Made by a program: the position numbers and the translations under genes. The notes under the pieces were generated by a model. The model did no database searches and was not told where the DNA came from. It saw only the letters and a list, made by a program, of their open reading frames with translations. DNA of 64,000 bases from Natronomonas salsuginis (lineage in GTDB: Archaea; Halobacteriota; Halobacteria; Halobacteriales; Haloarculaceae): the NCBI RefSeq assembly GCF_005239135.1, contig NZ_QKNX01000006.1:62001-126000 (forward strand). Direction: 5' to 3'. Of the stretch, positions 3,501-8,176 are shown one piece after another. Numbering within the stretch: position 1 is the stretch's first letter; every line of letters begins with the position of its first letter.

Positions 3501-3950
3501 TCACCCGCTCACCACGAGCAACGCCGTGTTCCCCCGTTCGTCAGCGTACTCGCTTCCGGCCGGCGGCTTGACCTCGAACTCGATCGTCCCGTCGCCCTGA
3601 TTCGGGCGAAGCTCGGGTGTTAGCCGCAGCTCCGCGACGCCGTTTTGGTCGGTCGTCGCCGTCTCGACGCCGTCGAGTCGTGCCGAGCCCCCGCGGGCGA
3701 TGACCGTCGCGTCCGAGACGGTCTGGCCGTCGGGATCGACGACCGAAACCTCGATCGTCTGCTCGCCCGGCCCGACGACCTCCGGTTCTGGGTGAACGTC
3801 CAACTCGATGACCGCCAACCCCGAGATCCCCGAGATCATGTTCATCATCACCGAGAGACTCGCGACGCCGACGACCAACGCGATGACGAGTCTCACCGGC
3901 AGCCCTTCGATACCACGCGTATCCGATCTAAACCGCTGTATCCGTCGCAT
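3501..3950 (-). CDS. Membrane-anchored pilin-like protein with carboxypeptidase-regulatory-like fold
   Basis: A 149-residue protein with a charged N-terminus (MRRIQRFRSDTRGIEG), one hydrophobic segment at about residues 17-42, and an extracytoplasmic beta-rich domain. That domain has VSVVDPDGQTVSDATVIARGG and a TTDQNGVAELRLTP stretch typical of carboxypeptidase-regulatory-like or Ig-like folds. The RGIEGLPVRLVIALVVG junction resembles haloarchaeal type IV pilin-like leaders, so prepilin-peptidase processing is possible but not proved. The start was set at 3950 because a TATA box lies about 25 bp upstream; an upstream extension of the frame would contain that promoter. The function is unknown. 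Confidence 0.72.
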   Translation of the reverse strand: MRRIQRFRSDTRGIEGLPVRLVIALVVGVASLSVMMNMISGISGLAVIELDVHPEPEVVGPGEQTIEVSVVDPDGQTVSDATVIARGGSARLDGVETATTDQNGVAELRLTPELRPNQGDGTIEFEVKPPAGSEYADERGNTALLVVSG

Positions 3951-3968
3951 GGGTCGTTTGGCCCCGTA

Positions 3969-3982
3969 TTGGTATATAAACT
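3969..3982 (-). promoter_or_regulatory. TATA promoter for the pilin-like gene
   Basis: The minus strand reads CAGTTTATATACC here, a good haloarchaeal TATA match whose centre is about 25 bp before the ATG at 3950. This predicts a leaderless mRNA. On the plus strand the element is a weaker match and is far from the next gene. Confidence 0.55.
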
Positions 3983-4151
3983 GTCGCCCGGAACCCAGGG
4001 GTGGGCTCCAATACGCCGGCTCCCTGCGACGGTGAACGAACTGCGCCACCCGTCAGCGACTCGCGGGTGATCGAACGCGGCAGTTCCACTGCCCGGCGTA
4101 CCGCTTTCGATGCCCGAACCAGAAGCGACTCCAAGACAGGTCACGAACGAT

Positions 4152-5405
4152 ATGTCGATGGCGGCCCCCAACCGAAACCGGCGTTCCAGACGGGAGTACC
4201 TCCGGGACCTCGTCGCGGTCGGCGGAACGGTCGCGCTGACGGCGTGTCTCCAGGAGACAGATCCGACCGTTCCGACCGGCGACCCGGCCGAACGGCCGCA
4301 CCGCCAGCACGCTTGGAACGACGTGCTCCGGACCGACGAGCACGGGAATCGTCGCCCGCCGAAGCACCACGTCTTGGTGCCGCTTCGCCTCGTCGTTACG
4401 CCGACCGAGGAGCCCCGGACGCAGGTCGAGACGGCGCTTCAGTCGCTCGAATCCGCGTACGCTTTCGATCCGGAGGGCTTGCTTTTCACGGTCGGATACG
4501 CCCCGGCGTACTTCGAGCGAATCGGCGCTGAGCCGCCGATCCCGTCACCCGAACCGCTGACGCCGATGGAGTCGCCGACGCTCGACGCGTTCGACGCGCT
4601 CGTCCACCTTGCGAGCGACGCCCCATCGGTCGTCCTCGAGGCCGAGGAAGCCCTCCTCGGATCGGTCGACGAACCCAACGGCGTGTCGATGGACGCCACC
4701 TTCGAGGGCGTCTTCGAACGCGCCGAGCCGCGCCGAACCGGCTTCGTCGGCCCCGGACTGCCCGCGGCGCACACCGACGTCGACGGCGTCCCCGACTCAG
4801 TTCCGGAGGACGCGCCTTTCTTCATGGGATTTCGTTCCGGTCTCGCGGAGAGCCAGGCGTCCGAGGACCGCGTCACCATCGAAGAGGGCCCGTACGCCGG
4901 CGGGACGACAACGCACGTCGAGTCGCTGTCACTCCAGTTGGAGACGTGGTTCGAACAGGAGGGCCGCGCCCAGCGCGTCGCCCGGACGTTCAGCCCCGAG
5001 CACGACCCCGAATCGATCGGCGACATCGGTGAGGGACTCGGCGCGTCCACGGGCGTCGTCGGCGATATTGCCGAGAAGACGGCCGAACACGCTCGAACCC
5101 GCGGCGTGGTCGGTCACGCCCAGAAGGCGGCTCGCGCCCGCGACGAGGACGGGGCCCCGCTCCTGTTGCGACGGGACTTCAACACCGTCGACGGCGATCG
5201 CCCCGGAGCCCACTTTCTCGCTCACCAGCGACGCATCGAGGAGTACATCAGGGTTCGCCAGGCGATGGCCGGATTGGATCTCGCGGGCGAAGGCGTCGGG
5301 CAGCGCCACAACAACGGCCTCCTGCAGTATATTTTCGTTCGACGCCGTGGAAACTACCTGATCCCGCCGCGCGATCGGCGCGCGCTCCCCAACACACACA
5401 GATGA
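4152..5405 (+). CDS. Tat-exported Dyp-type peroxidase homologue (DUF7405-like)
   Basis: A protein of about 417 residues with a Tat signal (RRSRREYLRDL followed by a hydrophobic stretch ending TACLQ, a lipobox-like cysteine). The rest aligns by eye with Dyp-type haem peroxidases such as EfeB: a GFRSG segment at 4827-4841 where the family has GFKDG, GGTTTHVESLSLQLETWF matching the conserved beta strand, and LLLRRDFN plus HFLAHQRRIEEYI near the end. The distal Asp of GxxDG is replaced by Ser, so peroxidase activity is uncertain. ATG 4152 has AGGTCA upstream; ATG 4110 is an alternative. The stop overlaps the next start (ATGA), so the operon is translationally coupled. Confidence 0.75.
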   Translation: MSMAAPNRNRRSRREYLRDLVAVGGTVALTACLQETDPTVPTGDPAERPHRQHAWNDVLRTDEHGNRRPPKHHVLVPLRLVVTPTEEPRTQVETALQSLESAYAFDPEGLLFTVGYAPAYFERIGAEPPIPSPEPLTPMESPTLDAFDALVHLASDAPSVVLEAEEALLGSVDEPNGVSMDATFEGVFERAEPRRTGFVGPGLPAAHTDVDGVPDSVPEDAPFFMGFRSGLAESQASEDRVTIEEGPYAGGTTTHVESLSLQLETWFEQEGRAQRVARTFSPEHDPESIGDIGEGLGASTGVVGDIAEKTAEHARTRGVVGHAQKAARARDEDGAPLLLRRDFNTVDGDRPGAHFLAHQRRIEEYIRVRQAMAGLDLAGEGVGQRHNNGLLQYIFVRRRGNYLIPPRDRRALPNTHR

Positions 5406-6610
5406 CGAAACACACACGCCCACCCACACACCGGACGACGAACAGCTACTCACGCCGTGCGCTGCTCGCGGCGAGCGCGTCGATCGCGGCCGGAACGGCT
5501 GGCTGTCTCGGCGGCGTCGGCGGGAACAGCCCCGACGCGGCGCAGCCAGAACCGATCGAAACCGACGACGACCTGCCCGAGCGGCCGCAGGTGACGAACC
5601 CGCCGGATGCGGTGTACCTCCCCTCTCACCGGGAGTCGATGGTTATGCTGTCGCCTATCGAGGTGGGCGAGTACGCGATCTCACCGCACGTCTCGTTCCC
5701 CCACCACTTTTGGCTTGTCACGGGAACCGAAACCGAGGAGGTCGCCCCGAGCGAGTACGGCGTTCACCTCATGCTCGCTGTTCGGGACGCGGAGACCGGA
5801 CAGCTACTTCCGGTCGACACCGGGGCCGAAGTCATCGTTCGGCGCGACGGCGAACGAATCGACCAGCGGATCCCGTGGCCGATGATCGCCCAGCCGATGG
5901 GGTTTCACTTCGGGGACAACGTCGCCCTCCCTGGCCCCGGTACCTACACCGTCGAGGTGACGTTGAACCCGATCGGAGCCCGCAAGACGGGCGGCTTCGA
6001 GGGGCGCTTCGAAGAGCGCGTCTCGACGACCTTCGAGTTCACCTACGACGACGAGGTCCGTCAGGAACTGATCGAGGGCGTGACGTTCGTCGAAGAGGAC
6101 CGCTGGGGCACGCCCGGCGCGCTCGAACCGATGGGACACGACGGCGGCCACGGTGGGGGACACGACGGCGGCCACGGTGGGGGACACGACGGCGGAGGCA
6201 ACGGCCACAACCACGGTGGATCGCCGTCGGGAATGTTGCCGCCGGCCTCGGCGTACCCCGGTCGGGATCTCGGATCGCCGTCGATCAGCGACGCCGCCTT
6301 CGTCGCTCGCTATCTCGAACGTTCGCGGCTGAGCTCCGACGGCGGCGGTTACCTCCTCGTGTCGCCGCGTACGCCCTACAACCGGTATCCGCTGCCCGAC
6401 ATGGCGCTGTCGGTCGCCGGCTCACTCGATGGCGAGTTGGTCCAGACGATCGACGACGAACTCGGCCACCACTACGGTCTCGCGGCCGAGTTGTCCCCCG
6501 GCGACGCGCTCGAGTTGGTGGTTGAGACGCCACCGCAACTCGCCCGCCACCGCGGCTACGAAACCGCGTTTCTTGAGTCCGGATCGATGCGTCTGGAGGT
6601 GTCCGAGTGA
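5402..6610 (+). CDS. Tat lipoprotein, P19/Tp34-like iron-binding protein with His-rich loop
   Basis: A 402-residue secreted lipoprotein: SRRALLAASASIAAG signal with lipobox TAGC. The first half resembles periplasmic P19-type iron/copper proteins (PF10634): HLMLAVRD, then PMIAQPMGFHFGDNVALPGPGTYTVEV, matching the family's metal-site and GPGTY motifs. Near residues 240-270 is a low-complexity (HDGGHGGG)n loop followed by GHNHGG, likely metal binding, and a second beta domain follows. P19 proteins accompany FTR1/EfeU iron permeases, and the upstream Dyp homologue echoes EfeUOB, but no permease is seen nearby. The start overlaps the previous stop, and the TGA overlaps the next ATG. Confidence 0.75.
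   Translation: MTKHTRPPTHRTTNSYSRRALLAASASIAAGTAGCLGGVGGNSPDAAQPEPIETDDDLPERPQVTNPPDAVYLPSHRESMVMLSPIEVGEYAISPHVSFPHHFWLVTGTETEEVAPSEYGVHLMLAVRDAETGQLLPVDTGAEVIVRRDGERIDQRIPWPMIAQPMGFHFGDNVALPGPGTYTVEVTLNPIGARKTGGFEGRFEERVSTTFEFTYDDEVRQELIEGVTFVEEDRWGTPGALEPMGHDGGHGGGHDGGHGGGHDGGGNGHNHGGSPSGMLPPASAYPGRDLGSPSISDAAFVARYLERSRLSSDGGGYLLVSPRTPYNRYPLPDMALSVAGSLDGELVQTIDDELGHHYGLAAELSPGDALELVVETPPQLARHRGYETAFLESGSMRLEVSE
6137..6195 (+). repeat. 24-bp in-frame tandem repeat encoding a His/Gly-rich loop
   Basis: Two and a half perfect copies of a 24-bp unit (6137-6160, 6161-6184, partial 6185-6195) encode HDGGHGGG HDGGHGGG HDGG. The exact repetition indicates recent expansion by replication slippage, so copy number may vary between strains. 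Confidence 0.85.
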
Positions 6611-7155
6611 TGCGCGAAAACGAATGGAGTCGATCCCGGCGGCGAGTGCTCCGCGCCGCCGCCGGTGTCGGCACGCTCGCGCTCGCGGGCTGTGTCGGCG
6701 GCGACGAGCCGCCCGAGGAGCCGACGGAATCGCCCGACGCCGAAGATATCGACCCGGATCTCAGATTGAACGGTCGCGTGCTCGCGTCGTCGTTCCCGAT
6801 CCGGCTCCGCGATCCCGACGAGGAGGCGGTCGTCACCGAGGTCCACTGGCACGGCGAGGGGTGGAGTCACTGGCACTTCCAGCCGCTCGAAATCTCGCTC
6901 GATGACACGCGTACACTCCAAGTGGTCGCGTTGGATCAGGACCTCGAGCCGATACCGCTCGGCGAAGACGACGCGTATCAGGTGGTCGTCCGTCGAACCG
7001 AGGAGACGGCTGCGGATCTCCTCGAGGTCGGCGTGGCGGACGATCGGATCGAGTTCCGCGGGACGACCGCGGGCGAGGGACAGCTAGTCTTCGAGCTGCG
7101 ACACGACGGCGAGCGAGCGTGGCTCTCCCCACCGCTCGAAACCGCCGTCGAGTAG
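6610..7155 (+). CDS. Small Tat lipoprotein with a His/Trp-rich motif
   Basis: A protein of about 181 residues with a Tat signal (SRRRVLRAAAGVG) and lipobox LAGC, then an acidic linker and a single beta-rich domain. Its striking feature is the cluster EVHWHGEGWSHWHFQPLEI near residues 76-94, with four histidines and three tryptophans, suggesting metal binding on the outer face of the membrane. I do not recognise a named family. It is the third gene of a translationally coupled operon (TGATG overlap with the P19-like gene), so a role in the same metal-acquisition process is inferred. GTG 6607 is a near-identical alternative start. Confidence 0.68.
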   Translation: MRENEWSRSRRRVLRAAAGVGTLALAGCVGGDEPPEEPTESPDAEDIDPDLRLNGRVLASSFPIRLRDPDEEAVVTEVHWHGEGWSHWHFQPLEISLDDTRTLQVVALDQDLEPIPLGEDDAYQVVVRRTEETAADLLEVGVADDRIEFRGTTAGEGQLVFELRHDGERAWLSPPLETAVE

Positions 7156-7459: not shown

Positions 7460-8176
7460 ATGGACGTTTCCACGAAGCGCTCTCTCCCACTTTGCGTGGG
7501 CATACTCGTGATCCTCCTCGCAAACCCAGCGACCGTCTCCCCGGGGATGGCCAAGGCCCCGCCGGAGCCCGTCTGTGGCGTTTGTACGAGCGCGCTCGAC
7601 GAGGCTGCAGGTGATCACGGGGTCTCCCTCCAACGCGGCGAGAGCAGGATGACGATCCAGTTGTCGCGAAACGGACGTGCGGAATTTGTCGCCCACGTCG
7701 AGCTAACGCAGGGTGCGGATCGACTCCGAAATGACTCGCTTCGAGACACGATCGTCCGAGACGTCTCCTACATTCTCGTCGACGATCGAGTAGATCTCCG
7801 GACCGCGATAGTTGACGGCGACCTACGTGTTCGATACGCGTCTCGCGACGTTGCGCACACGACGCTCGGCGTCGTACAGTTCGATGCGTTCCACACCCGA
7901 GGCGCACCCCCGCTTGCCACCGGTGGGGAGGGGAGTCCGTACCCGGGAGCCGATCGGTTGACACTGCGGGCACCCCCCGGATACGAACTCCACGGTTCCC
8001 ACGGCGATTTCACCAACGAGACATCGGCCCGCTGGCACGGAGACAGCCACGAGCGATATTCGGGCCACATCGAAGAGGACGTCACCATCTCGTTCAGTCC
8101 CGAACAGTCGCGTTTCCCGAACGTCCGGATTGCAGCGGCAAACTTCCTCGACTGGGTGGGTTCTCTCGGTGGCTGA
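7460..8176 (+). CDS. Secreted hypothetical protein with CxxC motif
   Basis: A 238-residue protein with a Sec-type signal peptide (positive N-terminus, hydrophobic residues about 9-28). Immediately after it is PVCGVCTSALDEAA, a CxxC resembling redox or metal-binding sites, followed by a beta-rich acidic domain. It ends in NFLDWVGSLGG with no membrane anchor, so either it is fully secreted or a C-terminal anchor has been lost. I do not recognise a characterised family. It lies alone between the iron-type operon and a PRC-barrel gene. Confidence 0.65.
   Translation: MDVSTKRSLPLCVGILVILLANPATVSPGMAKAPPEPVCGVCTSALDEAAGDHGVSLQRGESRMTIQLSRNGRAEFVAHVELTQGADRLRNDSLRDTIVRDVSYILVDDRVDLRTAIVDGDLRVRYASRDVAHTTLGVVQFDAFHTRGAPPLATGGEGSPYPGADRLTLRAPPGYELHGSHGDFTNETSARWHGDSHERYSGHIEEDVTISFSPEQSRFPNVRIAAANFLDWVGSLGG

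Follow-up and report, generated by a model that had tools for sequence, protein, structure and literature searches.

A haloarchaeal operon for three Tat-exported lipoproteins with DyP-like and P19-like members, possibly a module for copper handling at the cell surface

The window analysed here is a stretch of 64,000 nt from Natronomonas salsuginis (contig NZ_QKNX01000006.1, positions 62,001 to 126,000), which belongs to a haloarchaeal genome of 2.9 Mb in 12 contigs with a completeness of 99.9%. Close to its start, three reading frames at positions 4152-5405, 5402-6610 and 6607-7155 of the plus strand are open over their full length and correspond to proteins of 417, 402 and 182 amino acids, which we named P1, P2 and P3; all sites given below for these proteins lie on the same strand. 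A first-pass annotation, made from the sequence without database searches, had described them as three translationally coupled genes for proteins exported by twin-arginine translocation (Tat). In line with this, P1 and P2 overlap by ATGA at 5402-5405 and P2 and P3 by TGATG at 6608-6612. Other possible starts are an ATG at 4110 for P1 and an ATG at 6610 for P3, for which the GTG at 6607 was used here. Since the Tat signal of P1 is followed by a lipobox cysteine, which is kept in 58 of 60 P1 relatives, all three proteins are predicted to be lipoproteins.

P1 is a clear member of the Pfam family DUF7405 (PF24152, 478 bits). Its AlphaFold model, based on an alignment with 50 relatives, has a predicted local distance difference test score (pLDDT) of 86 and suggests the two-domain alpha+beta barrel fold of dye-decolorizing peroxidases (DyPs). 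The best matches of the model in the PDB are DyPs, among them Bacillus subtilis and Streptomyces A-type enzymes and several EfeB proteins, with Z of about 25-26 and a root-mean-square deviation (rmsd) of about 3 over approximately 290-310 residues, and Foldseek retrieved DyPs with E of about 1e-14. At the level of profiles, hhalign aligned P1 to nine bacterial EfeB/DyP sequences with a probability of 97.9 (E 4.7e-13), and to a 17-member set including a relative from a Streptomyces plasmid with 98.2 (E 6.2e-14). The curated DyP models did not detect P1: there was no match to the Dyp_perox model of Pfam, the NCBIfam EfeB model TIGR01412 scored 11.5 bits at a cut-off of 428, and a search of the genome of the window with PF04261 was empty (0 of 1). 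Plasmid-borne relatives of P1 were named 'Dyp-type peroxidase domain-containing protein' or 'Tat pathway signal protein' by their annotators. The Streptomyces plasmid relative, related to DUF7405 (L110:11992-13065; L numbers designate the loci of relatives), has 38% identity over 88% of the query and lies in oxidoreductase-rich surroundings; it has no signal peptide, and no P2 is found nearby.

The first-pass annotation had noticed a serine at the distal Asp position of the DyP motif GxxDG, and had proposed that P1 may bind haem or iron without peroxidase chemistry. The exchange itself was found: GFRSG at 4827-4841 aligns with GFKDG of EfeB, Ser229 taking the place of Asp, and this column contains Ala in 30, Ser in 28, Thr in two and Asp in none of the 60 relatives. 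Two other putative elements of a DyP-like haem site are invariant in the same 60 sequences. One is His322 (5115-5117), a candidate proximal haem ligand; the other is Arg340-Arg341 (5169-5174), the counterpart of the distal Arg (R347 in EfeB), with LRRDF aligned to LRRGY. The spacing of 18 residues between His322 and Arg340 equals that between H329 and R347 in EfeB, while the hhalign register is shifted by three residues, and therefore the role of His322 as proximal ligand is likely but not proven. The Asp-to-Ala variant of KpDyP is reported to retain the ability to form Compound I at a roughly 1000-fold lower rate (PMC6153280), and Arg is described as the key residue of some other DyPs (PMC8197335, PMC8463360). 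With the Arg kept and the candidate proximal His invariant, the peroxidase chemistry of P1 may be slowed and not lost. Thus, judged from its residues and from these studied DyPs, P1 is more likely a slow or specialised haem protein than a dead one, and the earlier proposal holds for the lost Asp but probably goes too far for the chemistry.

P2 consists of two domains, a P19/FetP-like domain at approximately residues 78-224 and a DUF7350 domain at residues 284-398. The latter matches its Pfam model with 146 bits, and the former matches Iron_transport/P19 (PF10634) with 28.3 bits at a cut-off of 21; PF10634 is also matched at E 0.01 or better by 29 of 33 P2 relatives. In the AlphaFold model (pLDDT 84.7), the first domain is superimposable on FetP (PDB entry 3nrq) with Z 13.4 and an rmsd of 2.5 over 134 aligned residues (Foldseek E 2.5e-5), and the P2 profile recovers FtrA, a protein of the P19 family, at E 9e-7. 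Based on these fold and profile matches, both homology claims of the first-pass annotation hold, that of P1 to DyPs and that of P2 to P19.

The putative metal site of P2 differs from that of P19 in a consistent manner. The His/Met set H122, M124, M161, M166 and H169 (5765-5908), which aligns with HLE, PM and GPHYG of FtrA, is present in all 33 relatives, as is H101, while M80 is found in 32; in the second domain, H383 is kept in 33 and H357 in 32 of them. The HxE of P19 is HxM in 33 of 33 sequences (HLE in FtrA became HLM), where HxE was read residue by residue for FtrA and taken from the titles of PDB entries for FetP and P19. The Met and the second His of the P19 site are retained, and the position of the GRH His is mostly Phe (F203, 31 of 33). 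According to the PDB entry titles, E44/E46, M88/M90 and D92 are the residues of P19/FetP that were mutated by others. We infer from this exchange of acidic ligands for Met that the site may prefer a softer metal, for example Cu(I). The His-rich loop noted in the first-pass annotation was also found, as a linker between the two domains at approximately 6131-6226. It was rejected as a hallmark of P2, because among the 33 sequences compared it is restricted to the window (7 His) and two close relatives, L075 (14) and L079 (28), each of the other 30 relatives having two His at most. In most of the latter the linker is short and contains Met runs of the MEMxM kind, and that of L039 has 17 Met.

P3 has no match above cut-off in Pfam or NCBIfam. 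It contains the expected stretch rich in His and Trp, HWH-x5-HWH at 6844-6876 (HxH...HWH in more general form), in which H80, H82, H88 and H90 are candidate ligands of a metal. An alignment of 14 sequences shows no variation at H80, H82, W89 and H90, and 13 of the 14 have H88. A search of 116 genomes from the family gave relatives with E<1e-23 at 16 places, one of which is the locus in the window. In 11 of the other 15 loci P2 is located directly upstream, and seven have the complete order P1-P2-P3; of the remaining four, two are cut by contig ends and two lack P1. At the last four of the 15 loci P3 stands alone, in genomes without P1 and without P2. P3 is thus a real, lineage-limited partner in this operon, which also occurs without P1.

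P1 and P2 are inherited together. Among 391 genomes of Halobacteria, DUF7405 is present in 346 and DUF7350 in 337; in a table compiled by hand from the two genome listings, 336 genomes have both, ten P1 only, one P2 only and 44 neither. The control searches also detected both families in the laboratory strain Haloferax volcanii. In seven of the ten genomes with P1 only (G013, G017, G102, G217, G278, G306 and G337), DUF7405 is diverged and matches weakly, with E between 1e-35 and 1e-115, a pattern that a decay of P1 after the loss of P2 would produce. Regarding gene order, 26 of 50 P1 stretches contain a P2, which in 19 of them is encoded on the same strand as P1 at a distance of up to 1.5 kb; these 50 exclude four redundant plasmid islands and L045. 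Genes at the loci of relatives were called by a simple reading frame chooser, which missed some of them, for example P1 in L045 and in L137, the latter being recovered by tblastn. The recurrence of the orders P1-P2 and P1-P2-P3 in relatives shows that the arrangement is not due to chance.

The first-pass annotation had also stated that no permease is encoded nearby, and this can be extended from the locus to the class. FTR1 (PF03239) was found in none of the 391 genomes, that of the window included, by a search which detected it in four of 14 known genomes used as positive control. Given the wide distribution of P1 and P2 in the same genomes, the lack of the permease is a property of the class and not a local loss. 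As a side observation, a membrane protein of about 500 amino acids, without Pfam match and with His residues that are conserved in the membrane segments closest to its end, is encoded at up to about 8 kb from P1 in a number of genera (L058:4720-6270, with relatives in L046, L052, L053, L068, L070 and L031) and is a candidate membrane partner. It was considered as the missing permease and dropped, since a search without positive control did not find it in the genome of the window.

Genes for copper chaperones recur near P1 or P2 in several other genera. Sco (SCO1-SenC, confirmed by Pfam) lies beside P1 in L034 and L067. Within 10 kb, seven P1-Sco pairs from three genera were observed while 0.38 were expected, and two P2-Sco pairs while 0.30 were expected, under a statistic that uses the best 150 places per family, assumes a uniform genome size and ignores relatedness. 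In L057, P1-P2 is flanked by NosL, a NosD-NosL protein and further nos-like genes; a NosL-like gene lies near P1 in L067, and NosL accounts for two of 144 neighbours in one of the neighbour sets (A4). In L001 and also in L067, P1 is next to a membrane protein of the DsbD_2 type. In the scan of 284 proteins encoded within 4 kb at 39 non-redundant loci, eight belong to the winged-helix regulator family HTH_HVO_0163_N. Iron importers were not found among the 25 commonest neighbour families of either set. Further, a DtxR-like palindrome with up to two mismatches is present upstream of P1 in nine of 79 cases and in about 12% of 310 controls, and is thus not enriched.

Together, the HxM in all 33 P2 relatives and the recurring copper-chaperone genes indicate copper at least as much as iron. 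We tentatively propose that the operon encodes a metal redox and chaperone module of three Tat-exported lipoproteins at the cell surface, with copper as the most likely metal, although our confidence in this falls somewhat short of even. The proposal builds on the operon structure, the predicted folds, the conserved residues, the co-inheritance and the absence of FTR1; haem binding, the identity of the metal, electron transfer and the client enzymes are what we infer beyond these. P2, and also P3, would hold the metal outside the membrane on their His/Met and His sites, respectively. P1 as a haem protein would alter the oxidation state of the metal or remove peroxide, and the metal would be passed to copper enzymes of the cell surface via partners such as Sco, instead of entering the cell through an FTR1 permease.

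The nearest studied arrangement is DtpA of Streptomyces with ECuC and Sco. There GlxA requires DtpA, a Tat-exported DyP, to be loaded with copper, and DtpA was proposed to oxidise Sco-bound Cu(I) (PMC4736821). Common to both are a Tat-exported DyP, lipoprotein partners and, in several haloarchaeal genera, an adjacent Sco; here, however, P2 is P19-like, Sco is not found beside the operon of the window and the Asp of GxxDG is lost. EfeUOB likewise combines surface proteins that bind metal with a Tat-exported protein of DyP fold in which the distal Arg is present, but it differs in the Asp (none of 60 here), in the FTR1/EfeU permease (none of 391 genomes) and in that P1 stays below the cut-off of the NCBIfam EfeB model. 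Systems in which P19, FetP or FtrA acts with an FTR1-type permease (FetMP, FtrABCD) resemble the operon in the P19 profile, the predicted fold, the site Met and one His of the N-terminal domain of P2. In contrast to them, P2 has HxM for HxE, mostly Phe for the GRH His, an additional DUF7350 domain and a linker containing Met or His, and there is no permease. With respect to Pfam, P1 and P2 are clear members of DUF7405 and DUF7350, and P3 is outside both.

Several observations weigh against copper. A motif scan found neither Sco nor NosL motifs in the first 20 kb of the window, the best Sco of the genome is on a different contig, and most P1 loci that were read have no copper gene alongside. 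Two of the A4 neighbours are ferritin-like, Dps adjoins one copy, and many P2 relatives bear the NCBI name 'iron transporter'. The heavy-metal ATPase of the pNG600-type plasmid islands was dropped as evidence for copper, because its CPC and C-terminal GDAG motifs presumably mark a Zn/Cd-type enzyme. In addition, the P19 iron system of Campylobacter is described as also accompanied by thioredoxins, and P19 is reported to require a copper site to transport iron (PMC10783030).

The main rival is iron acquisition, in which P1 would oxidise or strip iron like EfeB, P2 would deliver it and a carrier other than FTR1 would import it. It draws on the DyP/EfeB and P19 homologies, on the database label, on the genes for ferritin or Dps that adjoin P1 or P2 at a few loci, and on the fact that P19 and FetP are iron proteins despite carrying copper (PMC10783030). 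The absence of FTR1 from 391 genomes, the change from HxE to HxM in every P2 relative, the lack of iron importers among the commonest neighbours and the DtxR-like palindrome at control frequency all speak against it, and we consider it rather doubtful. The resemblance to iron uptake in the first-pass annotation is not established as function: FTR1 is absent from the 391 genomes, HxM is universal in the 33 P2 relatives and copper-chaperone genes recur in other genera. A module for peroxide or haem handling only, with P1 as a surface haem protein against oxidative stress and P2 and P3 holding P1 or sequestering metals protectively without delivery, is unlikely. In its favour are the lack of variation in the distal Arg and in the candidate proximal His, the universal-stress genes near one plasmid copy, and the metal-efflux ATPase and CDF transporter adjoining plasmid copies. 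It fits poorly with the strict pairing of P1 with a P19-like protein and with the loss of the Asp in 60 of 60 relatives, since a DyP that was studied forms Compound I more slowly when this residue is replaced (PMC6153280). That P1 is a haem-free structural or metal-binding scaffold, as the altered GxxDG and the unsettled register of His322 might suggest, is very improbable, because the invariance of His322 and Arg340-341 is hard to explain without a cofactor.

Some further features of the genomic surroundings are worth recording. The operon of the window is flanked upstream by a DUF7382 protein on the opposite strand (3501-4049, minus) and downstream by a 238-amino-acid protein of no family (7460-8176, plus), both with no evident link to metals. 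Near-identical P1-P2-P2 islands of the pNG600 type (L058, L061, L071, L072, L073; L111) are present in five genomes, where genes for a heavy-metal ATPase and for a CDF transporter adjoin them, and their near-identity points to recent horizontal spread. In a congener, a Tat lipoprotein of 671 amino acids and no known family is encoded a few bases upstream of P1 (L097:9305-11317, minus), and no P2 was found in this stretch. By eye it was taken for a copper amine oxidase, for which searches of Pfam and of PDB sequences gave no support.

The families of P1 and P2 and their names were known before. Our literature searches gave no paper using the name DUF7405 and no study of these haloarchaeal genes, nor did they give a description of the combination of an Asp-less DyP, a P19-like protein with Met for acidic ligands, a third lipoprotein with HxH and no permease. 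It is conceivable that the module serves copper trafficking throughout the class, in that an iron protein of the P19 type was turned into a Cu(I) site by replacement of its acidic ligands with Met, and the Asp-less DyP would act as a cuprous oxidase feeding Sco- and NosL-dependent enzymes; we regard this wider idea as speculative and doubtful. The P1-P2 pair is present in almost 90% of the haloarchaeal genomes that were searched, and both families are still listed as of unknown function, while databases label P2 an iron transporter in a class in which FTR1 was not detected. If the copper proposal is true, hundreds of genomes would carry an incorrect annotation, and DyPs that lack the Asp by nature would form a family suited to testing the roles of DyPs in cells.

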